Positions 7,767 to 20,063 of a DNA stretch of 20,083 bases are shown piece after piece. The notes beneath the pieces were generated by a model, which worked only from the letters and a program-made list of their open reading frames with translations, ran no database searches and was not told where the DNA came from. Source of the DNA: a virus; IMG/VR virus record IMGVR_UViG_3300010375_000059, positions 1-20,083 of that record; one strand, 5' to 3'. Numbering within the stretch: position 1 is the first letter of the stretch; each line of letters opens with the position of its first letter. The position numbers and the translations under genes are program-made.

Positions 7767-7790
7767 GGGGGCTATTTTGCCCCCTTTTTC
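7767..7790 (+). terminator. Intrinsic terminator of the late/lysis operon
   Basis: The stem GGGGGC/GCCCCC (7767-7772 and 7779-7784) has a TATTTT loop and is followed by TTTTTC on the plus strand. It stands 31 bases after the lysozyme stop. Its left arm also holds the stop codon of the convergent XRE gene. On the minus strand no T-run follows the stem. Confidence 0.88.
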
Positions 7791-8056
7791 TTTGGGGGTT
7801 TAACCGGAGAATGTTGGTCTATAAACGCTTTAATGTTGTCAGTAAGTAGGGTGCTAAGATCGTAATATATCAAAATTTCAGCCGATACATTGAAAATATC
7901 CCTCAATTGTTCAATACGATTTAGATCAGGAAAGGACACATTATTCTCATAATTACTAATGGCTTTTGCGGTCACATCCATCTTTACAGCAAGTTGATTT
8001 TGCGATAAGTCAAATACCGCCCTTAATATGGCAATGTTGCCGCCTATATATATCAT
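7772..8056 (-). CDS. XRE-family helix-turn-helix repressor
   Basis: This 94-residue protein has an HTH_XRE domain at about 8-62: 'RAVFDLSQNQLAVKMDVTAK' then 'ISNYENNVSFPDLNRIEQL' and 'DIFNVSAEILI'. No protease or dimerisation domain follows, only a short Lys/Pro tail. It is divergent from the 8157 operon across a 100-bp region holding a palindromic operator and both promoters, so it most likely represses that operon and possibly itself. It is a candidate for the lysogeny repressor of this phage. A TACATTTG -7 element ends six bases before the ATG, suggesting a nearly leaderless mRNA. Confidence 0.85.
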   Translation of the reverse strand: MIYIGGNIAILRAVFDLSQNQLAVKMDVTAKAISNYENNVSFPDLNRIEQLRDIFNVSAEILIYYDLSTLLTDNIKAFIDQHSPVKPPKKKGAK

Positions 8057-8795: not shown

Positions 8796-9050
8796 ATGAA
8801 AAAGAACATAAACCAGGAGAGCCAAGGAATTGCTTTAAAAATAAGCGGGAGACCGTTCCCTATAGAGCAACTTTCCTCCCGCGAAAGTATCTGCCGTCAA
8901 TTTTCATTAGAGTTGCTAAAAAATGCGCAAACTGCCTTAGTTGCCGAAAGGGATATTTTGGGTAAATCGTGCCCTGTTGCAACTCTTTTGGGAATCGCGA
9001 AAATAGAGTTGCTTATAGGAGAATTGACAGCCGTGAGGCCATTGCCATAA
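8796..9050 (+). CDS. Small hypothetical protein, operon end
   Basis: This is an 84-residue protein, probably helical from about residue 24 to 78 ('ICRQFSLELLKNAQTALVAE', 'VATLLGIAKIELLIGELTAV'). No known motif or membrane segment is evident. It is the third and last gene of the operon from 8141, 20 bases after the preceding stop and ~45 bases ahead of a strong terminator. Confidence 0.6.
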   Translation: MKKNINQESQGIALKISGRPFPIEQLSSRESICRQFSLELLKNAQTALVAERDILGKSCPVATLLGIAKIELLIGELTAVRPLP

Positions 9051-9094
9051 ATTCGCCCGTTGAATCCGTACTTAATCGACACGAATCAACAGCA

Positions 9095-9118
9095 GGGGGC
9101 CTAAGCGGCCCCCTTTCT
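9095..9118 (+). terminator. Intrinsic terminator of the 8157-9050 operon
   Basis: The stem GGGGGCC/GGCCCCC (9095-9101 and 9107-9113) has the loop TAAGC and is followed by TTTCTT on the plus strand. It also lies downstream of the convergent minus-strand block, but on that strand no T-run follows. Confidence 0.87.
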
Positions 9119-9155
9119 TATTGTAAGTATTTTGACGGTCCTAATGCTTCTATTT

Positions 9156-9560
9156 TCATTTTGTTTTCTTCGACACCGGTTTTGGTTTCGATCTAACAAA
9201 TATCGTGTCTTTCACGAAACTGAAACGGTAGGTCGACCCGTCTGTTAGTTCCTTTAACAATTCATTTAGTGGGGCATCTGTTCCGATATGTCCGCCACCC
9301 AACGCGCCTATATTCGCTGTGTCAACAGGTTTAATAAAATATAGATATTCCTTTCCATACGCAATAGCTACTTGGAACATAACATCCTGGACAGACCTTT
9401 TATCAAATGAGATATAATTGTGATCAAACTTTGCACGGTTAATCTTCCATTTGATGCTATGTGGACCGTTGTAAATAATTTCACCACGCCCATCGCGTTG
9501 GATGGGAAGCCATGCGGCTGTAAAAATGCAGATCGAAATAAGAGAAATTAAACGAGTCAT
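9156..9560 (-). CDS. Secreted stand-alone STN/DUF4974-like protein
   Basis: This is a 134-residue protein. Residues 1-20 are a signal peptide. Residues ~50-124 look like an STN (secretin/TonB N-terminal) or the related FecR C-terminal DUF4974 fold: 'SFDKRSVQDVMFQVAIAYGK', 'DAPLNELLKELTDGSTYRFS', then 'VKDTIFVR'. Such domains normally sit at the front of TonB-dependent transducers, where they contact FecR in the periplasm. Here no barrel follows, only a basic tail 'KPKPVSKKTK'. It is the last gene of the minus-strand block that also holds a FecR-like and a sigma-like protein. Confidence 0.62.
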   Translation of the reverse strand: MTRLISLISICIFTAAWLPIQRDGRGEIIYNGPHSIKWKINRAKFDHNYISFDKRSVQDVMFQVAIAYGKEYLYFIKPVDTANIGALGGGHIGTDAPLNELLKELTDGSTYRFSFVKDTIFVRSKPKPVSKKTK

Positions 9561-9593
9561 ATCATGTTATTTGAGTGAATAAACGTTTTTGAT

Positions 9594-10208
9594 TTAATGT
9601 TTTAATTGAAATGTACCCCAAAGTTCTGCGGGGGCGGTATCGCCTCGTAGTATCATGTTATTGTAGCATTCTGCGGCTTGTGCGTCACTGGGTCTTGAAT
9701 CGGCGGAAGTAATACCGACATTAATTTCAGCCGGACCTTTCATTACAAAGATTTTATGATAAGTAGTGTCCCACACAGCTAATGGGGGGTGGTACACTAC
9801 TTCAAATAATGGTTTGTTATAAAGTTGAGAATCTGCGGCAAAAGTTATTGAATACTTTCCATGTCCTTTGACGCTATCTGGGTTAATTAGAGGGATAGCA
9901 CCTAAGTAGAATACACGCATCCCGGTAGACATAGGAGGTAGTCCTTCATACTCGTTCAAAACTGTATCACTCGTGGTAAAAGGACCAGGAATCGACGCTA
10001 TACGACCAAATAGCACATTTTGAATTTGATTAAATGGATCGGAATAATAGTCTACATTCCAATCAAAAGGTATTAGAACAACAGTGTTGATCGTATCAGT
10101 TATCGGTGGTGGAGAAGAATAGTCAGGGAAGGTCGTAAAATCGGTAATGGTTTTCTCACACGATACAATAAGCAATGCAAAGAATAAAGGAAAGGTGAGT
10201 TTGCGCAT
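9594..10208 (-). CDS. Predicted lipoprotein, unknown function
   Basis: This is a 204-residue protein. 'MRKLTFPLFFALLIVSCEK' is a lipoprotein signal with lipidation at C17. The mature part is beta-rich, with Pro-rich 'FPDYSSPPPITDT' and 'MSTGMRVFYLGAIPLINPDS', and has no catalytic motif I recognise. The signal and block context place it in the periplasm or at the outer membrane. It lies 33 bases ahead of the STN-like gene. Confidence 0.68.
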   Translation of the reverse strand: MRKLTFPLFFALLIVSCEKTITDFTTFPDYSSPPPITDTINTVVLIPFDWNVDYYSDPFNQIQNVLFGRIASIPGPFTTSDTVLNEYEGLPPMSTGMRVFYLGAIPLINPDSVKGHGKYSITFAADSQLYNKPLFEVVYHPPLAVWDTTYHKIFVMKGPAEINVGITSADSRPSDAQAAECYNNMILRGDTAPAELWGTFQLKH

Positions 10209-10296
10209 AGTTTAACGAATAATAACGTATTAGCAATCTTACGTCGGTGTTTATGAATTTTGTATGTTATTTTAATGAACAAACACGCCAGGAATC

Positions 10297-10938
10297 TTAA
10301 TGCGAATTGCGTACTTTCCTTTTGGCGCCCTTTATATTTGTAATCGTCTTATAGTGCTTTAACCCAAAGATCATTTCTTTTTGATTGGTTTGAAGCGGAA
10401 TGACGTTGAACCAAATTTTTATCATTTCGTCTTTTTTTTGGGGAATCGTTTTAATCGAATAAAATGCAAAGATTTTCTCCAATAAAGCCTTTCGGTTAAC
10501 TCGATAGGTTCCATACTGGGATTGATTTACCCGCATTTCTCCCTTTCGAATTTGGCGCGATCTTGGATTTACGAATAGGAGAAGGCCCCGTGTTTTTCTC
10601 TCCGTTCCATTCAATAGAGTAACGATACCATCGGTTAGTGCAATAGTTTCTATTTCGATGCCATTCCGTTTAAAATACAAACCTGTATTCAATTCGTGAA
10701 TGGTGTGACTAGCATCGATTCGAATAGTTGCCTGCAAGTCGTACGAAAAAAACTTTCCTTTGGGTATTTCCCGAAGTTCGAAATTTAAATCGTCAAAATT
10801 GATCTCTGCGGGGATGGGTTTATATGCAATTTCTATGGGTTGAATGGACGGAACCACTTTTTCCTTTTTCAAAAGTTTGGAATTGCTTTTGCCCCTTCTC
10901 GGAGCCGTTTTTTTACTATTTTCTTTTATATCTGGCAT
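10297..10938 (-). CDS. Hypothetical protein with a basic N-terminus
   Basis: This is a 213-residue protein. The first ~30 residues are strongly basic ('KTAPRRGKSNSKLLKKEK') and there is no signal peptide, so it should be cytoplasmic, unlike most of its neighbours. The rest alternates strands and charged turns ('FFSYDLQATIRIDASHTIHE', 'IWFNVIPLQTNQKEMIFGLK'). The basic tail could bind nucleic acid, but this is only a suggestion. It lies 65 bases downstream of the FecR-like gene and 88 bases upstream of the lipoprotein gene. No family recognised. Confidence 0.6.
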   Translation of the reverse strand: MPDIKENSKKTAPRRGKSNSKLLKKEKVVPSIQPIEIAYKPIPAEINFDDLNFELREIPKGKFFSYDLQATIRIDASHTIHELNTGLYFKRNGIEIETIALTDGIVTLLNGTERKTRGLLLFVNPRSRQIRKGEMRVNQSQYGTYRVNRKALLEKIFAFYSIKTIPQKKDEMIKIWFNVIPLQTNQKEMIFGLKHYKTITNIKGAKRKVRNSH

Positions 10939-11003
10939 AATGAAATTATTTCCGATGGGGCCATTTATCGCACTCTTTTGCGAGAATGCGTTCTGTTTGG
11001 CTA

Positions 11004-11813
11004 TTAATCTCTATGATGAAAGTAGATTTCACTTTTTCGTACTTTATATATCGATTTTCCATCGAACCATGAATCTTTAATAGTGTTTAACATATCCGTC
11101 AATGAAAGAGACTTAGGGAGTATAGCGTACAGTTTTTTGTTTTCATCTGCATAATCATAGGTGATGTTAACGTGATACCATCTATTTACACTGGCGATTG
11201 CCGTGCGCAATGAAACACGATCGAAATGCCAGCTAGTTTTATCTGTTCGCCATCGGGTGGTGGTAGGCCAATCAATGGAAGTATCGGTAACGACCGAATC
11301 ATTTCCCAATATATCGACACTAGTGGGAGCAACGAATTTTCTGTCGATGGTGGGGGTAACCAGCCTGAAGCTGCCTTTTAGAAAGTTGAAAGAGCTAAGA
11401 ACATATTTTTCTTTTGGCGTTGGCGGATTCCACGGTATTGATTCAATGTCTAATTCACTACCGGGGTCAACAATTAGATCGTAGTATGCGCAGTGTATCC
11501 GGAACGCCTTGTCTCGCTTTGACGAAACGGTAAAACTGATATGGCCGTTGACCCATAAGTCGTTCGGTTCTCCTTGTTTACAGGTAGGAAACCACAAGGA
11601 CGTTTCATAATCGAGGACAACTTGGCTTTCGTCGGGCAATTGTATTGATAAGCAGGAAGAATCTCCACTTATTACGATATGATAGTCGAGGTCAGGAGCA
11701 GGAGAAGGCAGCCCACTATAGGTGGAAACTGTGCTTTGAGCCTCTAAGTTTTTGCTGACGGCGCATACACTAGCCATTAGAACAAGAAAGTAAGAGCTTA
11801 GATTTGTGTTCAT
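11004..11813 (-). CDS. Secreted FecR-like protein (sensor and DUF4974 parts, no cytoplasmic domain)
   Basis: This is a 269-residue protein. An N-terminal signal peptide (about 1-25, ending 'EAQ') replaces the usual cytoplasmic anti-sigma domain and TM of FecR proteins. Residues ~55-125 follow the FecR core: 'LSIQLPDESQVVLDYETSLW', then 'LWVNGHISFTV', 'KAFRIHCAYYDLIVDPGSEL'. Residues ~193-269 look like the FecR C-terminal DUF4974/STN-like domain ('FDRVSLRTAIASVNRWYHVN', 'SLSLTDMLNTIKDSWFDG'). FecR normally relays an outer-membrane signal to an ECF sigma factor; this version cannot reach the cytoplasm by itself. A sigma-like fragment is encoded two genes upstream. Confidence 0.68.
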   Translation of the reverse strand: MNTNLSSYFLVLMASVCAVSKNLEAQSTVSTYSGLPSPAPDLDYHIVISGDSSCLSIQLPDESQVVLDYETSLWFPTCKQGEPNDLWVNGHISFTVSSKRDKAFRIHCAYYDLIVDPGSELDIESIPWNPPTPKEKYVLSSFNFLKGSFRLVTPTIDRKFVAPTSVDILGNDSVVTDTSIDWPTTTRWRTDKTSWHFDRVSLRTAIASVNRWYHVNITYDYADENKKLYAILPKSLSLTDMLNTIKDSWFDGKSIYKVRKSEIYFHHRD

Positions 11814-11874
11814 GTTGGAAGCAATTAATTTAGTAAATAATAAAAGTGAAAGAAGGTGCTACCTGTGGTGTAAG

Positions 11875-12588
11875 CTATTTGATCTTTGCGTTATGGGACA
11901 CATTGTAAGTCCAATTAGCAATATATCTTTTGTAATGTTTTCGGAAATTATTATCGATAATCAGATTCTTACCTAAATATTCCTTTCCGCTTTCAAATTT
12001 TATAGTCAGTCTCTTTAGTTTTTCGTCGGCAACAAAGTTATAAATGGAAAAAACCAGCATATTGTAATAATTCCCGTCTAAGGCATCTTTAAGAGGCTTA
12101 TCAAAATGAATTGATACGAAAATGCTGTCTTTCCCGTAGCAATTTCCATCAGCGTCGTACGGCAAATTGGTAAGAAGCAATTTCAATTTATCACGTCGGC
12201 TTTTTCCAAGTAAAACCATACTATTTCTTTGAACTACATCATAATCCATTGGAACATTTCTAAATGAGTCTAAGGATAAAGCAAAACCGTTTATCGGGTA
12301 GCGTTTTGTTTCAGGAAAAAGATAGGCGTTTAAGAATAGTTTCATCCTGTCTTTCATTGTTTCATACATCGTCGCACCCATAAGGCGGTATCTGTCAAAA
12401 TTGAAATTAAATTTCAAGTACCTATTGCCCGAAATATTAGTAGGCGCTAAATAAACAGAAGTGTCACCTTGGATCAATATGGCTGCTATGCTGGCCCTAA
12501 CGCGGATCGGCCACTCTAGTTTTTGTGGAAATGCGCTTTCTATGGATAAAATAGTACATAAGATAAATACGAGATAAAGTTTAATCAT
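11875..12588 (-). CDS. Secreted protein, paralogue B
   Basis: This is a 237-residue protein with a signal peptide (about 1-21, ending 'FPQ'). It aligns by eye with the 12910-13620 product: an early 'RASIAAILIQGDTSVYLAP' (versus 'RANIASTLAQGK' plus 'AIAIP'), then 'YLKFNFNFDRY' (versus 'YFQFTFRRDFF'), and a late 'YYNMLVFSIYNFVADEKLKR' (versus 'YYGILAAVIHYYITDGKLDV'). The fold looks beta-rich. No known family is recognised, and the protein is predicted periplasmic or exported. Confidence 0.65.
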   Translation of the reverse strand: MIKLYLVFILCTILSIESAFPQKLEWPIRVRASIAAILIQGDTSVYLAPTNISGNRYLKFNFNFDRYRLMGATMYETMKDRMKLFLNAYLFPETKRYPINGFALSLDSFRNVPMDYDVVQRNSMVLLGKSRRDKLKLLLTNLPYDADGNCYGKDSIFVSIHFDKPLKDALDGNYYNMLVFSIYNFVADEKLKRLTIKFESGKEYLGKNLIIDNNFRKHYKRYIANWTYNVSHNAKIK

Positions 12589-12612
12589 GGCAAGGAGTTT
12601 GGTCCTAAAAGG

Positions 12613-12873
12613 TCAAATTGAATTACTATCCTCAATATTTTTATTAAGTTCTTCTTTTATAAATGTCAGTAAAGGAAGAAATGCGTTTGCAAAGCCAGTA
12701 GTGGCCCACAAGCGTCCTACTGTGTAGTTTGTCATGTCCCTGGCCCTATTGGAGTCTTTTAATATTGAGTAAGCATATTCCTCCAATGGCTCCAAAAAAA
12801 ATAGACAAAATTCCTTGAATGCTCGAATGTCTTTTTTCTTCAGCTTCTCTAATAGAATATGTTCGTCCGTCAT
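12613..12873 (-). CDS. ECF sigma region-2-like protein lacking region 4
   Basis: This is an 86-residue protein. 'LLEKLKKKDIRAFKEFCLFF' then 'EPLEEYAYSILKDSNRARDM' and 'TVGRLWA' follow the region 2 pattern of ECF sigma factors (helix, 'DxxAFxxxxxxxxxxLxxYA', 'AxD', 'xxLW'), which binds RNA polymerase and the -10 element. The remaining ~28 residues cover the end of region 2, and the protein stops at 'KNIEDSNSI' with no region 4. I see no region 4-like frame nearby. It may be a degenerate remnant or a small RNA-polymerase-binding modulator. It lies between the two secreted paralogues, 24 and 36 bases from them. Confidence 0.55.
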   Translation of the reverse strand: MTDEHILLEKLKKKDIRAFKEFCLFFLEPLEEYAYSILKDSNRARDMTNYTVGRLWATTGFANAFLPLLTFIKEELNKNIEDSNSI

Positions 12874-12909
12874 TGTATTACAGATAACTGCAGTTTCCTT
12901 TTTAGAAAG

Positions 12910-13620
12910 CTACTTGTTTGAATAATACGTTTTTGGATATGCAGGTATGTGCCGTAATGCTAATTCGTAGTCAGAATCTTTATTAAAAGTGTACACATCT
13001 GATTTAGATGCGGTCGTATGATATATCTTTACGTCTAACTTTCCGTCTGTGATATAGTAGTGTATTACTGCCGCAAGAATGCCGTAATAATGTCTATTTT
13101 CCACCCGAATAATTCCATTTGATTCTTCATTAAGGACCAGACAATAACATCCGTTGGCGTAAAAGCGATTGATAGATTTGATCGGAAAAGGCAAAATCTG
13201 AAATAAACTATTCTCACGTTTTGACATAGTAGTTTTACGCCATGACCCAATTCCTCCTGTCCAATCATGGTGTAGGATTTTCGGCTGCAAACTGTCGTCC
13301 TGCTCGAAAAAATTTACGTAATATAAAAAACCAGCTGAATCTACCGAGGAAAGAAAGCCGCCCAAAAAGTTGGCGAGATGGACGACAAGTTTTTCGCTCC
13401 GATTAGCGTTTCTGCTAAAAAAGTCACGACGGAACGTGAATTGAAAATATAATTTTCCATCAACCTCCTTTTTATTAGGGATAGCAATTGCATCGTTTAC
13501 AATTTTACCTTGTGCTAAGGTACTGGCAATATTAGCTCTCCTATGTAAGGACCAATTCACTTGCCCACATAAGGTACTAGATATAAATAATAGACCGAAC
13601 AAAGGAAATAAGGCTTTCAT
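12910..13620 (-). CDS. Secreted protein, paralogue A
   Basis: This is a 236-residue protein starting at ATG 13620, which opens a signal peptide ('MKALFPLFGLLFISSTLCGQ'). The frame stays open upstream to 13740, but the added residues would bury the signal. It is related to the 11875-12588 product along its whole length (shared 'RANIA' region, 'FQFTF' strand, 'YYGIL' and 'DGKLDVKIY' near the end). It has a few Cys residues ('YANGCYCLVLNEE'). It is the first gene of the minus-strand block, so the block promoter should lie in 13621-13860. Function unknown. Confidence 0.65.
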   Translation of the reverse strand: MKALFPLFGLLFISSTLCGQVNWSLHRRANIASTLAQGKIVNDAIAIPNKKEVDGKLYFQFTFRRDFFSRNANRSEKLVVHLANFLGGFLSSVDSAGFLYYVNFFEQDDSLQPKILHHDWTGGIGSWRKTTMSKRENSLFQILPFPIKSINRFYANGCYCLVLNEESNGIIRVENRHYYGILAAVIHYYITDGKLDVKIYHTTASKSDVYTFNKDSDYELALRHIPAYPKTYYSNK

Positions 13621-13857
13621 GGTAATAATAAGGTTTGAGTACAAATTATGGTCTTGGGCAAAAAATATTCTAAACCTCCTGGAATAGAGGAACAATATAC
13701 TATTTAATAACATTTGGGTAATTGCTTTAGAGGCAATCACATTAATAGAGCGCTAACCAATATGGAAACGTAATCGCGGTACTGAGCATCTACCGGGTCG
13801 CTGTTATATAGAAGTCCGCTCACGGGCTACTAACCGCAAGCGTGTAGTGAATCTCAC

Positions 13858-13925
13858 AAAATCCCCCAGGGTTTGCTGGGGGAGCACTAATCAAATACCA
13901 TAACCATTAAACCTTATCCTATTAG
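13858..13925 (-). ncRNA. Predicted 68-nt small RNA or terminated leader, copy 1
   Basis: On the minus strand, TATCTTTA (13930-13937, 5 of 6 consensus bases) is followed by four bases and then the 42-bp repeat, placing the start at about 13925. The repeat leads straight into the hairpin TCCCCCAG/CTGGGGGA (loop CAAACC on this strand) and then TTTT, an intrinsic terminator. The RNA would be ~68 nt. A six-codon frame (13907-13887, encoding MVMVFD) ends just before the hairpin. It lies ~240 bases upstream of the minus-strand secreted block, so it could be an attenuated leader of that block or an independent sRNA. Confidence 0.55.
13884..13925. repeat. 42-bp perfect direct repeat, copy 1
   Basis: It is identical over 42 bases to 18186-18227 and in the same orientation (begins GCACTAATCAAATACC, ends CTTATCCTATTAG on the plus strand). 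Similarity of detail stops on both sides, but each copy has a C-rich/G-rich hairpin on its left and a CGTAT (minus strand) nine bases beyond its right end. Confidence 0.93.
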
Positions 13926-13998
13926 ACCGTAAAGATACGAAGTGCTTTAAAAGAGGATATAAAGAAAGTTCTATATTTTAGGTCTAAAAAAGCTCATA

Positions 13999-14050
13999 AT
14001 AGGCTTATTTGAATCCTATATTAGGTATGAGTAAGCCTATTATAGGCTTA
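13999..14050. promoter_or_regulatory. Operator candidates of the 14089 HTH gene
   Basis: TAAGCCTAT-T-ATAGGCTTA at 14032-14050 is a perfect 19-bp palindrome. A separate half-site ATAGGCTTA lies at 13999-14007. Both copies of ATAGGCTTA are followed by TTTG. The palindrome abuts the -33 region of the promoter for the adjacent HTH gene, so autoregulation is likely. Confidence 0.65.
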
Positions 14051-14054
14051 TTTG

Positions 14055-14083
14055 TTTGATTATCCGCAAGTTGTGTTATTTTG
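14055..14083 (+). promoter_or_regulatory. Promoter of the HTH gene
   Basis: TTTG at 14055-14058 and TTATTTTG at 14076-14083 (5 of 6 fixed bases of TAnnTTTG) are 17 bases apart. Five bases (GCCGA) separate the element from ATG 14089, the same spacing as at the XRE gene, so this transcript may also be nearly leaderless. Confidence 0.45.
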
Positions 14084-14088
14084 GCCGA

Positions 14089-14370
14089 ATGGATTCGAAG
14101 GAACTCAAACTTGCAAAAGATGGAATAGAAAAAAAGAGCCTGAAGCGGTTTCAAGATATTTTTTATATTGTTTCTAGTAACGACATGGCCGATCAATTGC
14201 ATATTAATCGGTCCCGGTTCCGTGCATTAATAAAGAATCCATTCCCAATGAGGGTGAGGGAGATATACAAAGTTTCCAAAATTCTTAATGTTCAAGCGGA
14301 GCAGATAAGCCAAATGATTCATTACCAATTGGAGAACCCCGCAAAAAGCGAGAGGGCCAAGGCAAAATAG
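14089..14370 (+). CDS. Small HTH regulator (Cro/XRE-like)
   Basis: This is a 93-residue protein. ATG 14089 is used because the longer reading would include the promoter element. The central part 'FYIVSSNDMADQLHINRSRF' with 'EIYKVSKILNVQAEQISQMI' has the helix spacing and hydrophobic pattern of a Cro/XRE-type HTH. The C-terminus is a basic tail 'KSERAKAK'. The palindrome immediately upstream suggests it controls itself, and perhaps the kinase-terpene synthase-regulator genes that follow 57 bases downstream. Confidence 0.68.
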   Translation: MDSKELKLAKDGIEKKSLKRFQDIFYIVSSNDMADQLHINRSRFRALIKNPFPMRVREIYKVSKILNVQAEQISQMIHYQLENPAKSERAKAK

Positions 14371-14427
14371 GTGTTTTCACGCTTATTTTTCCACATATTA
14401 AGTTAGATATTGCATTTTACCGTATTA

Positions 14428-15804
14428 ATGGAAGAGGTATTTCTAACTATGAAAAGTTTAAAAAATTGGTGGCTTTCGATGGTGCGTTCCGGCACGGAAA
14501 GTCTTTCTAGCCATGATCCTCAGAAGCGCGTAATTATCGGCGTCAATCGAATGTCGCTTACAGTGATCCTTCTTAACGTTACTGTGGGAACTTTTGTCTG
14601 GCTGGTCACAGGAAAAATAAGCATATTATTTGGGGTGACAGTAGAAACCTCGGCTTTGGCGTTACCTCTTGTACTTAATCGATATCGAAAGTACAATGGT
14701 GCGGCAATGTCGATTTATTTAACTATGTCTGTTGCAACGCTCTATTTTGGCTGTGCGCTAGGAAAGGCAATTGAATCGCAGCTAATGATAACCTATTTGA
14801 TTGGGGTTTCACTATTTATGTTTTCGCGAAGAATCTACAAAGCGGTCTGCATTCTTTCGTCTTTTCTTATCTTAATTTGTTTAGAGCTTAATTCGAAATA
14901 TGAGGTTATTGCTCCTATTAGGATGAATGTTTTCACTCAGGTTGCTGTGAGGTGGTCAGCATATCTTGCAATAATTATCTTAGTAATTATTACTTTTCAT
15001 CTATATTGGAAAAATGATCGAGCCTTGCGAAAAGAGTTGCAAAAATATGCAGATCAGGTAAAGGAAAATTTAGAAAAGGAAACTCGTGAGCATAAGAATA
15101 AAGATAAATTTATAACAAATGCTGGTCATGAAATAAAAGTATCTTTTCATAGTATCTTTGCGATCATAAGTATCTTGGAAAATGATCTGAAAAGAAATGG
15201 AGACATTAATAAGACAATTAAGGTTATTAACGATTTGAAAGCTGCGTGTAAAATTTCTCAAAGTATTAATGACAATATCATGCAGTTTGAAAAATATAAC
15301 GCAGGTATACCAACCATACCGAGAGATCAACTTTTCAATCCTAAAATCTTATTCGAAAGCATTGTAGACCTCTATAAATATGTCGCGATACGAAATAAAA
15401 TTGAGATAGAATGCGTCATCCTGGATATGCCAAAACATATCCGAAGCGACGATGTGATGATCCGACATATCTTGTCTAATTTGTTGCATAATGCTATTAA
15501 ATATGCGCCGAACAATTCGGTCGTCTTAGTGACATGTAAGATAAAGAATGACATATTAGTCTTCAGTGTTAAAGACAGCGGAGAAGGGATACCCAAGTCG
15601 GTAGATATTTTTGGTGCGTACGTAAGCCAGAATCCTGATGGGTTGGGAATAGGACTTTTTCTAGTAAAGGAATTGGTTACTAATCTTGAGGGTAAAATTG
15701 CTGTAGAAAGTGATGAAAACGGGACTATTTTTACAGTGTCTATCCCGTTGCATCCAATTAAATGTAATAAATCTGCAGTTTTACCTCAGAGTAACCTAAG
15801 TTAG
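14428..15804 (+). CDS. Membrane sensor histidine kinase
   Basis: This is a 458-residue protein counted from ATG 14428 (ATG 14449, with AGAGG upstream, is an equally plausible start). Six hydrophobic segments lie between about residues 42 and 195, with no large periplasmic loop, so it probably senses something in or at the membrane. A coiled linker leads to the H-box 'NAGHEIKVSFHSI' (His at 234), the N-box 'SNLLHNAIKY' (350-359), G1 'KDSGEGIP' (382-389) and G2 'DGLGIGLFLVKEL'. The proline usual after HEIRT is missing. The response regulator at 16878 is its obvious partner, with the terpene synthase between them. Confidence 0.88.
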   Translation: MEEVFLTMKSLKNWWLSMVRSGTESLSSHDPQKRVIIGVNRMSLTVILLNVTVGTFVWLVTGKISILFGVTVETSALALPLVLNRYRKYNGAAMSIYLTMSVATLYFGCALGKAIESQLMITYLIGVSLFMFSRRIYKAVCILSSFLILICLELNSKYEVIAPIRMNVFTQVAVRWSAYLAIIILVIITFHLYWKNDRALRKELQKYADQVKENLEKETREHKNKDKFITNAGHEIKVSFHSIFAIISILENDLKRNGDINKTIKVINDLKAACKISQSINDNIMQFEKYNAGIPTIPRDQLFNPKILFESIVDLYKYVAIRNKIEIECVILDMPKHIRSDDVMIRHILSNLLHNAIKYAPNNSVVLVTCKIKNDILVFSVKDSGEGIPKSVDIFGAYVSQNPDGLGIGLFLVKELVTNLEGKIAVESDENGTIFTVSIPLHPIKCNKSAVLPQSNLS

Positions 15805-15889
15805 ACAAAGAGTAATGCTCTTAAATGTGAACGTTTATGGGTTATGTCCAGATAAATCTTTAGATTCGGGGTAATTAAACCTTTCCTAT

Positions 15890-16885
15890 ATGCATCTCTA
15901 TAGAATCCCCGTTCTATATTGCCCATTCGATGGTGCAATTCATCCACAGGTAAATGAAATCGAAGAACATACACTGCAATGGCTGTTGGATTTTAAGCTG
16001 GTTGACAATCACAATACATTTATTAAATATAAGCGAAACAAATTTCCGCAATTCATTGCACGGACATTTCCAGAGGGCGATTTTATAGATATTTGTACTT
16101 GGTGTGATCTGAATAGTTTGCTTTTTATCGTTGATGATTTCTTTGATGCAAACCATGTAATAAAAGACAAGCAATCGTTTAAACAGTTTCAAGGAAAAAT
16201 TATGGAAATTCTCCTTTACCATAAAAATTTTGCAATTGAGGATGGGCCAATATTTGTTGCATTTAGCGATATTTGGGAACGACTTTGTTTAAGGTCTTCT
16301 TCAAAATGGCAATCTAAATTCATAGGTTGTATAAAGAAAATGTTTGAAGGGCTCTATTGGCAATTTAAAAATATAAGTCTTGGAATTTATCCGGCCTATG
16401 AAGATTACTTGGAAATAAGGCAATATTTGGGGGCGTCGCACCTCTCTACCGACAGTTTAGAATTAACTGGCAAAATATATTTGTCAGAAACGGTTTATCG
16501 AAATTCAACTGTACGCAGATTGACTGAAATTAGCAGAAACTGCGTTTGCTTTGCTAATGATCTGTTTTCCCTGAGTAAGGAAAAAGACGAGTCACAAAAC
16601 TCCGGCGAATATAATCTTGTAGGCGTAATGAAACGCAAATTTAATCTTTCATGGGAGGAAGCCATTAAGAAAGCCGCTGACCTCCATGACGATCTTGTTC
16701 GCAAGTTCATTGGTCTAACGCCACAAGCCTATGTTTTTGATGAAAACACTAATAAAACCCTGGCAAAATATATTCGGGCGTTACAGATACAGATGATAGC
16801 GAATATTGAATGGTCAACCACAGAGACAGACAGGTATCCACATATATATAGCAATCACACAGAAGAAATTAAATTACATGATTAA
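15890..16885 (+). CDS. Class I terpene synthase (terpene cyclase)
   Basis: This 331-residue protein has the usual length for bacterial terpene cyclases, which ionise a prenyl diphosphate with Mg2+ and cyclise it. Visible hallmarks in order are the aspartate-rich DDFFD (82-86), the effector region 'EIRQYLGAS' with diphosphate-sensor Arg177 and G181-A182, the NSE triad NDLFSLSKE (223-231: N223, S227, E231) and the C-terminal RY pair (315-316) in 'TETDRYPHIY'. All catalytic positions are intact, so activity is expected. The product cannot be told from sequence. No prenyl transferase or tailoring enzyme lies in the window, so substrate must come from the host. It overlaps the response regulator by 8 bases. 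Confidence 0.92.
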   Translation: MHLYRIPVLYCPFDGAIHPQVNEIEEHTLQWLLDFKLVDNHNTFIKYKRNKFPQFIARTFPEGDFIDICTWCDLNSLLFIVDDFFDANHVIKDKQSFKQFQGKIMEILLYHKNFAIEDGPIFVAFSDIWERLCLRSSSKWQSKFIGCIKKMFEGLYWQFKNISLGIYPAYEDYLEIRQYLGASHLSTDSLELTGKIYLSETVYRNSTVRRLTEISRNCVCFANDLFSLSKEKDESQNSGEYNLVGVMKRKFNLSWEEAIKKAADLHDDLVRKFIGLTPQAYVFDENTNKTLAKYIRALQIQMIANIEWSTTETDRYPHIYSNHTEEIKLHD

Positions 16886-17495
16886 AACGGAAATAAATAT
16901 TAATAAGATCTTGATTGCAGATGATCATCTAACCGTTGCATTTGGCCTTAAAGGACTAATTGAGAGTTATTTTGGATATACTAATATTGAAAGTGTTAGG
17001 AGTTGCAGTAAAATAATGGAAGAACTGAAGTCTCATGAATATACACACTTAATATTAGATATTGGCTTGTCGGATGGGTCTGCAATGGAAATCCTTCCTA
17101 ACATAAGAAAATTGTACCCCTCCTTGCATATCATGGTTTATTCGGCTAAACCTGCCGCCGCATATAAGAAAGCATTTGCTAAGTATGGAATACAGCATTA
17201 TTTATCGAAGGAGGAAGAAATAGAGGCAACAAATAGCGGGTTACGTAGTTTTTTCAGCAATCATCCAATGCGCTTAGTTGAATCAACTGAAAACCCTTTT
17301 TCGAAACTTTCACCTAGAGAATTGGAAGTATTTTCATATCTTATTGAAGGCAAAAGTGGGAATGAGATTGCGGCTGCACTGGGTTTAGCCAAAAATACTG
17401 TATCAGTTTATAGAGGGAACATCCATGAGAAAACAGAGACTAAAAATGTGGCAGAGTTGATTAATTTAGCCATTGCGTATAATATGTTAGATTAG
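16878..17495 (+). CDS. NarL/FixJ-type response regulator
   Basis: This 205-residue protein starts at ATG 16878, eight bases before the terpene synthase stop; the frame continues upstream, but the receiver begins here. The receiver domain (~10-125) has D15/D16, the phospho-acceptor D61 in 'LILDIGLSDGS', S89 and K111. The LuxR-type HTH (~143-205) has 'LSPRELEVFSYLIEGKSGNE' and 'LAKNTVSVYRGNIHEKTETK'. The overlap implies translational coupling with the terpene synthase. With the kinase encoded upstream, this makes a complete two-component system around the biosynthetic gene. Confidence 0.88.
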   Translation: MIKTEININKILIADDHLTVAFGLKGLIESYFGYTNIESVRSCSKIMEELKSHEYTHLILDIGLSDGSAMEILPNIRKLYPSLHIMVYSAKPAAAYKKAFAKYGIQHYLSKEEEIEATNSGLRSFFSNHPMRLVESTENPFSKLSPRELEVFSYLIEGKSGNEIAAALGLAKNTVSVYRGNIHEKTETKNVAELINLAIAYNMLD

Positions 17496-18385: not shown

Positions 18386-19852
18386 TTATGCTGCCAACAT
18401 TGTTAGATGTTGTCCGGTGGGTACCATGCGTTCTGCCTTGCAGGGAAAACACGGTACACGCTGAATGCAAACAATCATAAATGCGGAGAGAGGTGGGACG
18501 CAAGGACTGGAATGTGGTAGGCTTAATTGCCTTGGAGCAGCTCCAAAATGATTATCTGCTGTTTTAATTGTTTCATGACTCCTTTGACGTTTACGTAAAT
18601 CATAAATCCTTTTCACCATTTCTTCGGTAGTATGGTTGGCAGCAGCAGCGGCGGCTTCTGATCCGAATTTGTCAACCAAATCCGTTAGGTTAGTGTGTTT
18701 CAATTCATACGGGCGAACATTAATTCCAAGCTCTTCTACCACATATTTACGCCAACGCTTATTAATGTTATCTGGACGTATCGGCTTATCTCCTGGCCGG
18801 AACCCACGGCTAAAAAGATATTGCCCCGGTTTGCATTCCTTTAAAGCGCGTTCCCAAAATTGCTTGGCTATTTCCTTTATAGTTATTGTGACGGGGGCAT
18901 TTTGCCCTCCTTTGAGTACCGTATTTTCGACTATATTATTTTCAAGATGTACACCAATGTCCTGGACTAAAAGTAATTCGGTTTCGCGGGCTGAAGAATG
19001 AAAGAATATGTTTATGAAGGTTGCAAAATCAGGGTCGCGTTTCCATAAATGCGTGTCAATAATTTCACGTTGTTCCTGAGTAAAGCCAATGGGATCGGCT
19101 GTTTTCCAAGGCAAATCTTCCAAACCATGACAGGGATTAGTCAAGAGTATCTTTTTCTTTTTGAAAATATTGAAGTGCATGGATAAATAATCTTTGGCTC
19201 TATTCTTTTGGTAATTTGACCATTTAAAAACTGTCTCTTTTTTTGTTATAGGGTGAAAACCTTTAGCTATAGTATATGTCTTTTCGAGTATGGTATCTAT
19301 ATGCTGAGGGGTTATGTCCTCAATGGATAAATCATGGTATTTAAGGATTCTTATTGCTGGATAAACCCGGGTCATGTACCCTCCTATATCAATTTTGGCT
19401 TTATGAACCCATGTAGCTTTTTTATAGGCCCATTCCAATGAAAAAAGAAGATCACTCTTGCGGGTTATAGTCTCATCCTCTTTTCCGGCAATCCTGGTAC
19501 TATTGTCTGTATTACTGTCAACTTCAATAGGATCGGAGGCTATCGGTTCAATTTTGCCCGTAAAAGGATTTAGGCCGTTTTTCAAATCATCTATAGTATC
19601 AATTAGAAGCTGCCGGGCGGCGTCCTGCCTTGCATGAAGCGTTTTATACTTGTTTCCTGCCCGCCATTTAACTTCCATTACGCCCCGTACGGGGTGATGG
19701 AACGTAAATTTTATGAACCAGTCCCGTTTAACACTTGCTTTTGAGGATTCCCAATTTGAAGGATTAATGTACGGTTGAGTGAATTTGCAGCCGTTGGAAA
19801 GGGTGGTGTACGCTGTGGAGCGGTCTTGTTTTTTGGTCTCTTTTTTAGCCAT
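18386..19852 (-). CDS. Tyrosine recombinase / phage integrase
   Basis: This is a 488-residue protein from ATG 19852; a GTG 27 bases upstream would add nine residues. Residues ~130-240 hold a SAM-like core-binding domain, and residues ~255-430 the catalytic domain. Visible catalytic positions are R289 in 'FFHSSARETELLLV', K385-H386 in 'RPYELKHTNLTDL' (canonical HxLRH here reads YELKH), H407 in 'AANHTTEEM' and the nucleophile Y417 in 'VKRIYDL'. KHT boxes are common in recombinases of this phylum. A ~55-residue tail after residue 433 is Pro/Cys-containing ('PCFPCKAERM') and unlike typical ends. It probably integrates the phage at the adjacent tRNA-Gln. Confidence 0.88.
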   Translation of the reverse strand: MAKKETKKQDRSTAYTTLSNGCKFTQPYINPSNWESSKASVKRDWFIKFTFHHPVRGVMEVKWRAGNKYKTLHARQDAARQLLIDTIDDLKNGLNPFTGKIEPIASDPIEVDSNTDNSTRIAGKEDETITRKSDLLFSLEWAYKKATWVHKAKIDIGGYMTRVYPAIRILKYHDLSIEDITPQHIDTILEKTYTIAKGFHPITKKETVFKWSNYQKNRAKDYLSMHFNIFKKKKILLTNPCHGLEDLPWKTADPIGFTQEQREIIDTHLWKRDPDFATFINIFFHSSARETELLLVQDIGVHLENNIVENTVLKGGQNAPVTITIKEIAKQFWERALKECKPGQYLFSRGFRPGDKPIRPDNINKRWRKYVVEELGINVRPYELKHTNLTDLVDKFGSEAAAAAANHTTEEMVKRIYDLRKRQRSHETIKTADNHFGAAPRQLSLPHSSPCVPPLSAFMIVCIQRVPCFPCKAERMVPTGQHLTMLAA

Positions 19853-19884
19853 TTTAGTGCATTTAATGCCCAGCGACACCCTTG

Positions 19885-19977: not shown

Positions 19978-19992
19978 ATTGTTAACTTAATG

Positions 19993-20063
19993 TTGCCCGA
20001 CCTGGATTCGAACCAAGACAAACAGAACCAAAATCTGTCGTACTACCATTATACTATCGGGCA
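19993..20063 (-). tRNA. tRNA-Gln (anticodon TTG)
   Basis: This is a 71-nt cloverleaf. Acceptor stem TGCCCGA/TCGGGCA with discriminator A, D arm region 'TAGTATAATGGTAGTAC', anticodon stem ACAGA/TCTGT around loop TTTTGGT (anticodon TTG), T loop 'GGTTCGAATCC'. CCA is not encoded in full (CA follows). Its 3' end faces the integrase, the usual arrangement when a phage has integrated into the 3' part of a tRNA gene and restored it. The sequence right of 20063 is probably host. Confidence 0.93.

Follow-up and report, generated by a model that had tools for sequence, protein, structure and literature searches.

A cargo block in a prophage of a Chitinophaga-like bacterium encodes an unanchored FecR-like protein and a sigma region 2-like protein

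Organization and genome setting

At positions 9156-13620 of the window, the whole stretch of 20,083 bases that makes up the virus record, lie seven intact minus-strand ORFs, g1 to g7, with g7 as the first gene of the block. All seven had been described in the initial annotation and are confirmed here. Six minus-strand ORFs of at least 130 aa were observed in the block, compared with a mean of 0.03 expected from 1000 first-order shuffles, and the intergenic gaps are 24-88 nt. Terminator-like stems flank the block on both sides: a strong one of 8 pairs (7 G-C) at 9094-9114, located after g1 and common to the convergent gene 8796-9050, and another at 13862-13883 (minus strand), upstream of g7, which sets the block apart from the genes further right. 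A search for the Bacteroidota -33/-7 promoter motif did not find one.

The 5′ part of the record lies in a P2-like tail module, and the baseplate J protein of the window matches many myovirus J proteins. The closest tail genes found are those of Chitinophaga, with J 56 % identical to that of Chitinophaga sp. CF418 and 38 % identical to that of C. skermanii, and the virus is a P2-like prophage integrated in a Chitinophaga-like bacterium. In the right part of the window the integrase gene (18386-19879, minus strand) adjoins a tRNA-Gln (TTG) gene (19992-20063, minus strand), and the right end of the prophage, at this tRNA, is therefore probably the attachment site; this is the only prophage end that the record contains. 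The block is situated between the endolysin and integrase genes, in agreement with the prophage setting first proposed for it. Related prophages were recovered with a J profile from 10 of 396 Chitinophagaceae genomes. In the C. skermanii prophage the integrase gene follows the endolysin gene by about 350 nt, and in the Chitinophagaceae prophages where endolysin and integrase are both visible the slot between them is empty or occupied by a few unrelated genes. Since the corresponding gap in the window is 10.6 kb, the block is prophage cargo, lying in a slot that related prophages also use for cargo.

Other cargo is present at 14410-17495, where a histidine kinase gene is in a row with genes for a terpene synthase and for a response regulator of the LuxR type. 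The terpene synthase (Pfam Terpene_syn_C_2, 5e-37) looks unusual as a lysogenic-conversion gene. Two short genes, 7772-8056 and 14056-14370, resemble Cro/C1-type HTH regulators; the second of these (Pfam HTH_26, 0.0015) is transcribed in the direction leading out of the block, for which it could serve as a regulator.

The FecR-like and sigma-like proteins

The product of g4 (11004-11813, minus strand) matches Pfam FecR_C (3.9e-7) and FecR (1.2e-3), and its alignment to a Chitinophaga FecR profile of 392 positions is confined to positions 194-375 (E-value 2e-18); the FecR family profile in turn matches the solved ectodomains 4m0n and 4m0h and that of PupR, 6ovk. The N-terminal part of FecR, comprising the cytoplasmic anti-sigma domain, the single membrane helix and the linker, is missing from the alignment and is replaced by a signal peptide, and no anti-sigma domain was found in any frame. 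What g4 contains is a juxta-membrane domain and a C-terminal STN-like domain, that is, the periplasmic half of FecR and nothing else, and the earlier description of a FecR-like protein without an anchor is borne out. This half of FecR normally contacts the nutrient receptor. From these alignments g4 is firmly assigned as a complete receptor-binding periplasmic half of FecR, unanchored and with its own predicted signal peptide. It is about 20 % identical at most to any host FecR, and the Gly-Thr self-cleavage motif of FoxR and FecR aligns with Gly-Ser in g4.

An ECF sigma region 2-like protein had also been proposed, and this assignment stands for g6 (12613-12873, minus strand; 86 aa). With a profile of seven Chitinophaga ECF sigmas, whose members were taken solely for preceding FecR genes and not chosen through g6, the E-value is 9e-7; a larger sigma profile gives 1e-12, a value to be read with the fact that its members were partly chosen through g6. 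A match in the genome search is 35 % identical (2.9e-6), and the NCBIfam value of 0.044 is below threshold. Alignment to the Chitinophaga ECF sigmas covers their region 2, at about 35-38 % identity over 47-54 residues, but these proteins are of about 190 aa, whereas g6 lacks the linker and region 4, and their conserved D-V-V-Q-x-x-F stretch is D-M-T-N-Y-T-V in g6. The ORF stops after region 2, 24 nt ahead of g5, and region 4, the part of sigma that binds the -35 element, is absent both from g6 and from all frames of 9000-14400. The profile and genome searches together make a good case that g6 represents region 2 of an ECF sigma, with region 4 absent.

Stand-alone sigma region 2 proteins of 90 aa are encoded right after FecR in three Chitinophaga chromosomes (L073:9178-9450, L074:1501-1773 and L075:1501-1773). 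They are conserved half sigmas without region 4, not recognised by Pfam, and since they are under purifying selection (dN/dS 0.11-0.17) half sigmas can be functional. They share with g6 their size, the region retained, the lack of region 4 and a nearby FecR gene, but they are only 28 % identical to g6, are chromosomal and stand beside a complete FecR. The L073 gene overlaps the 3′ end of FecR, and this locus also has a complete sigma gene before FecR and an AraC-like gene. In three other Chitinophaga genomes sigmas of 165-176 aa (L069:7984-8508, L070:8754-9251 and L071:7755-8285) have region 2 but not region 4; gene order is conserved among them, and each has as its neighbour a FecR of 400-415 aa, a receptor gene being absent.

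The STN-like and orphan proteins

A weaker case is presented by g1 (9156-9560, minus strand), a 134-aa exported protein that the initial annotation called a lone STN-like protein. It matches Pfam STN at 0.22, two independent FecR_C profiles at E-values of 0.04 and 0.12, and receptor STN profiles at 0.04-0.27, the receptor profile that gives 0.04 being built in part from loci chosen through g1. With the largest independent FecR_C profile (E-value 0.12) g1 scores above all of its own shuffles (2000/2000). Stronger support from the first FecR_C profile was set aside because that profile had been partly chosen through g1, and its rebuilding from independent FecR proteins gave the value of 0.12. 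The AlphaFold prediction for g1 alone (pLDDT 41) is of too low a confidence for use. Although these matches are weak, an STN-type fold, as a lone STN/FecR_C-type domain, is probable; an origin as a piece of a receptor is not favoured, since the best genome matches are mostly to FecR C-terminal domains and not to receptors.

The remaining four of the seven genes are orphans. The first gene of the block, g7 (12910-13620, minus strand), encodes an exported protein of 236 aa; translation from the ATG at 13620 yields a signal peptide, and a longer GTG start at 13740 is possible. Searches of 197 Chitinophagaceae genomes, of phages and of viral contigs gave no homologue. Among 395 Bacteroidia genomes there was no convincing relative of the 237-aa product of g5 (11875-12588, minus strand). 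Signal peptides are present on both, as expected of the two secreted paralogues first described, but their relatedness is weak (pairwise BLASTP, E-value 6e-5 over about 106 residues). One genome gave a match to g5/g7, also weak, and the AlphaFold prediction for g7 with g5 (pLDDT 33.5) has a confidence too low for use. The lipoprotein and the basic protein of the initial annotation are both recovered, as g2 (9594-10208, minus strand; 204 aa, lipobox LIVSC) and g3 (10297-10938, minus strand; 213 aa, computed pI 10.1, no signal peptide). Neither 79 Chitinophaga genomes nor the plasmids and viral contigs searched contained a match to g3, and g2 gave chance-level matches only in 79 + 231 genomes. 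A SusD-like match of g2 (40 % over 65 aa, E-value 0.005, two near-identical loci) lay mostly in the signal peptide and lipobox, was absent on repeat in 231 more genomes and was treated as chance.

Relatives of the block in other genomes

A search for the same gene set in other prophages, suggested by the initial annotation, was negative, and the block was absent from every collection searched (genome samples, a phage collection, IMG/VR and plasmids). Pattern scans of IMG/VR, which detect close relatives only, found no relatives of g4, g7, g3, g5 or g1, and two patterns for canonical FecR gave no confirmed example there. In the phage collection g6 had no relative and g4 a single weak match, in a bacterial FecR operon. 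Since the searches were uneven, consisting of such pattern scans and of samples of Chitinophagaceae and Bacteroidia genomes, their outcome means that the block is rare or diverged, and not that it is unique. One candidate for a phage FecR, MT835631.1 (L048), was rejected, as its FecR belongs to a complete sigma-FecR-SusC operon of bacterial type and no phage genes are visible there; this record, a 'Bacteriophage sp.' from human faeces, looks like a mislabelled bacterial scaffold, and other MT83xxxx 'Bacteriophage sp.' records from human faeces also gave FecR matches.

Possible functions of the block

In Bacteroidota many nutrient receptors are under the control of sigma/FecR/receptor chains, and phages also enter cells by way of TonB-type receptors. 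In Chitinophaga host operons the order is sigma, FecR and STN-bearing receptor. No complete locus of this kind (sigma, anchored FecR and STN receptor) is present in the block: the six-frame segments of 9000-14400 contain no receptor plug (with a profile of the N-terminal ~420 residues of receptors only), no sigma region 4 and no anti-sigma domain, and none of the ORFs is long enough for a 22-strand barrel. This supports the earlier view of a signalling chain present as separate domains and lacking a receptor barrel. On the question of whether the folds might be unrelated to those of sigma, FecR and STN, which the initial annotation had raised, sequence profiles uphold FecR and sigma region 2, although STN is weak. 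The block is thus real and intact and, on these comparisons, has one firm (g4) and one good (g6) link to host cell-surface signalling; with an exported g4 and a half sigma g6, the virus may interfere with host sensing of the surroundings.

The reading that we prefer, with a probability of about 0.4, is that the block is a lysogenic-conversion operon centred on soluble, exported g4 and that, in this soluble form, it competes with host FecR. We infer that g4, once in the periplasm, would bind the STN domain of at least one host TonB/SusC-type transducer, replacing the membrane-anchored host FecR and uncoupling the receptor from its sigma factor. By withdrawing the receptor domain, free g4 would leave host FecR unprotected and sigma output would rise; g1, if it has an STN fold, would act on the same interface and, as an STN mimic, would have the opposite effect, with sigma output going down. 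The presumed site of action of g6 is the cytosol, on RNA polymerase and not on FecR, and because g6 lacks region 4, the part of FecI that FecR is reported to bind (PMC9249621), FecR would not be expected to retain it. Any benefit might fall to the phage or to the lysogen.

Published work on related proteins favours such competition. The periplasmic half of PupR is made up of juxta-membrane and STN subdomains that are both required for binding the signalling domain of the receptor, with a Kd of 0.69 uM (PMC7186176). The entire periplasmic region of Pseudomonas FoxR is soluble and includes the segment responsible for binding to the receptor domain, and overproduction of the free receptor signalling domain inhibits signalling completely, shielding the anti-sigma factor from proteolysis (PMC11637429). 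Since g4 corresponds exactly to the periplasmic half that binds the receptor, and such systems are known to be switched off by free signalling domains (PMC11637429), a phage-made decoy, as first suggested, is biochemically plausible. The extent of FecR covered by g4, the intact ORFs bounded by terminators and the cargo slot also favour a competitor of FecR, as does the abundance of host targets, which is indicated by the sigma-FecR-receptor operons and by two genomes in which g4 has 31 and 18 matches. Against it stand the failure to find a homologue of the block, the weak STN match of g1, the four orphans among seven genes and the low confidence of both structure predictions; binding of g4 to a host receptor is uncertain because of its low identity to host FecR proteins. 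That the soluble signalling parts compete with host FecR for TonB/SusC transducers so as to rewire or silence receptor expression in lysogens is doubtful. The further suggestion that superinfection through TonB receptors is blocked gained no support, as the block genes show no homology to exclusion proteins or defence models, PADLOC gave no convincing match for them and no other prophage searched carried the block.

The main rival explanation is that the cargo region took up fragments of one or more host sigma/FecR/receptor loci, which now drift there without function; we consider this unlikely. In its favour, only a FecR half and a sigma half are recognisable, their order along the block, with sigma before FecR, is that of host operons, and the block has not been found elsewhere and has orphans among its genes. 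However, all seven ORFs are intact, g4 has a signal peptide of its own at its start and the end of g6 is clean, short of g5. The pseudogene remnants of a full locus were also looked for in six frames and no missing part was found; with no anti-sigma domain, region 4 or receptor sequence left in any frame, a frameshifted relic is disfavoured. This absence argues against a locus broken in place, but not against the capture of single domains followed by drift.

It is distinctly unlikely, though consistent with the export signals on five of the seven products and with most of the coding length having no tie to signalling, that the FecR and STN folds have been reused as structural modules and, together with g2, g5 and g7, form a complex that is secreted or lies in the outer membrane and has no relation to sigma signalling, such as surface or competition proteins; against this, the sigma region 2 gene sits mid-block between two secreted genes, 24 nt from g5. 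A self-contained new signalling device, in which g4 and g1 would be the periplasmic sensors and g6, together with g3, would act on prophage or host transcription, is improbable, for although envelope and cytosolic parts are encoded together and the Chitinophaga region 2 proteins beside FecR are under selection, hydropathy reveals no recognisable membrane-crossing protein in the block to join periplasm and cytosol, and g6 is without region 4.

Comparison with known systems

If g4 does compete with host FecR, a phage-borne, unanchored receptor-binding domain of FecR would be a new viral route into receptor control, and the block would represent viral interference with cell-surface signalling by a temperate Bacteroidota phage; g4 would then also be a natural reagent for asking whether the contact between FecR and receptor protects FecR or triggers it. 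Among FecR-type regulators (E. coli FecR, PupR and FoxR, and the FecR/DUF4974 proteins of Bacteroidota) g4 has the same periplasmic FecR and STN-like half, but it has a signal peptide instead of the cytoplasmic anti-sigma domain and membrane helix. Known phage proteins acting on TonB receptors are Llp (PMC9586334) and Cor (PMC11436027), and no block gene hit Llp, Cor or similar exclusion proteins in the database searches made. The block resembles T5 Llp and phi80/N15 Cor in comprising small exported phage products, one of them a lipoprotein, and in having TonB-dependent transporters as a possible target class. Whereas T5 Llp jams the plug of FhuA (PMC9586334), the products of the block would act on the signalling domain. 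Compared with these systems, the block is new in its arrangement and ordinary in its parts.
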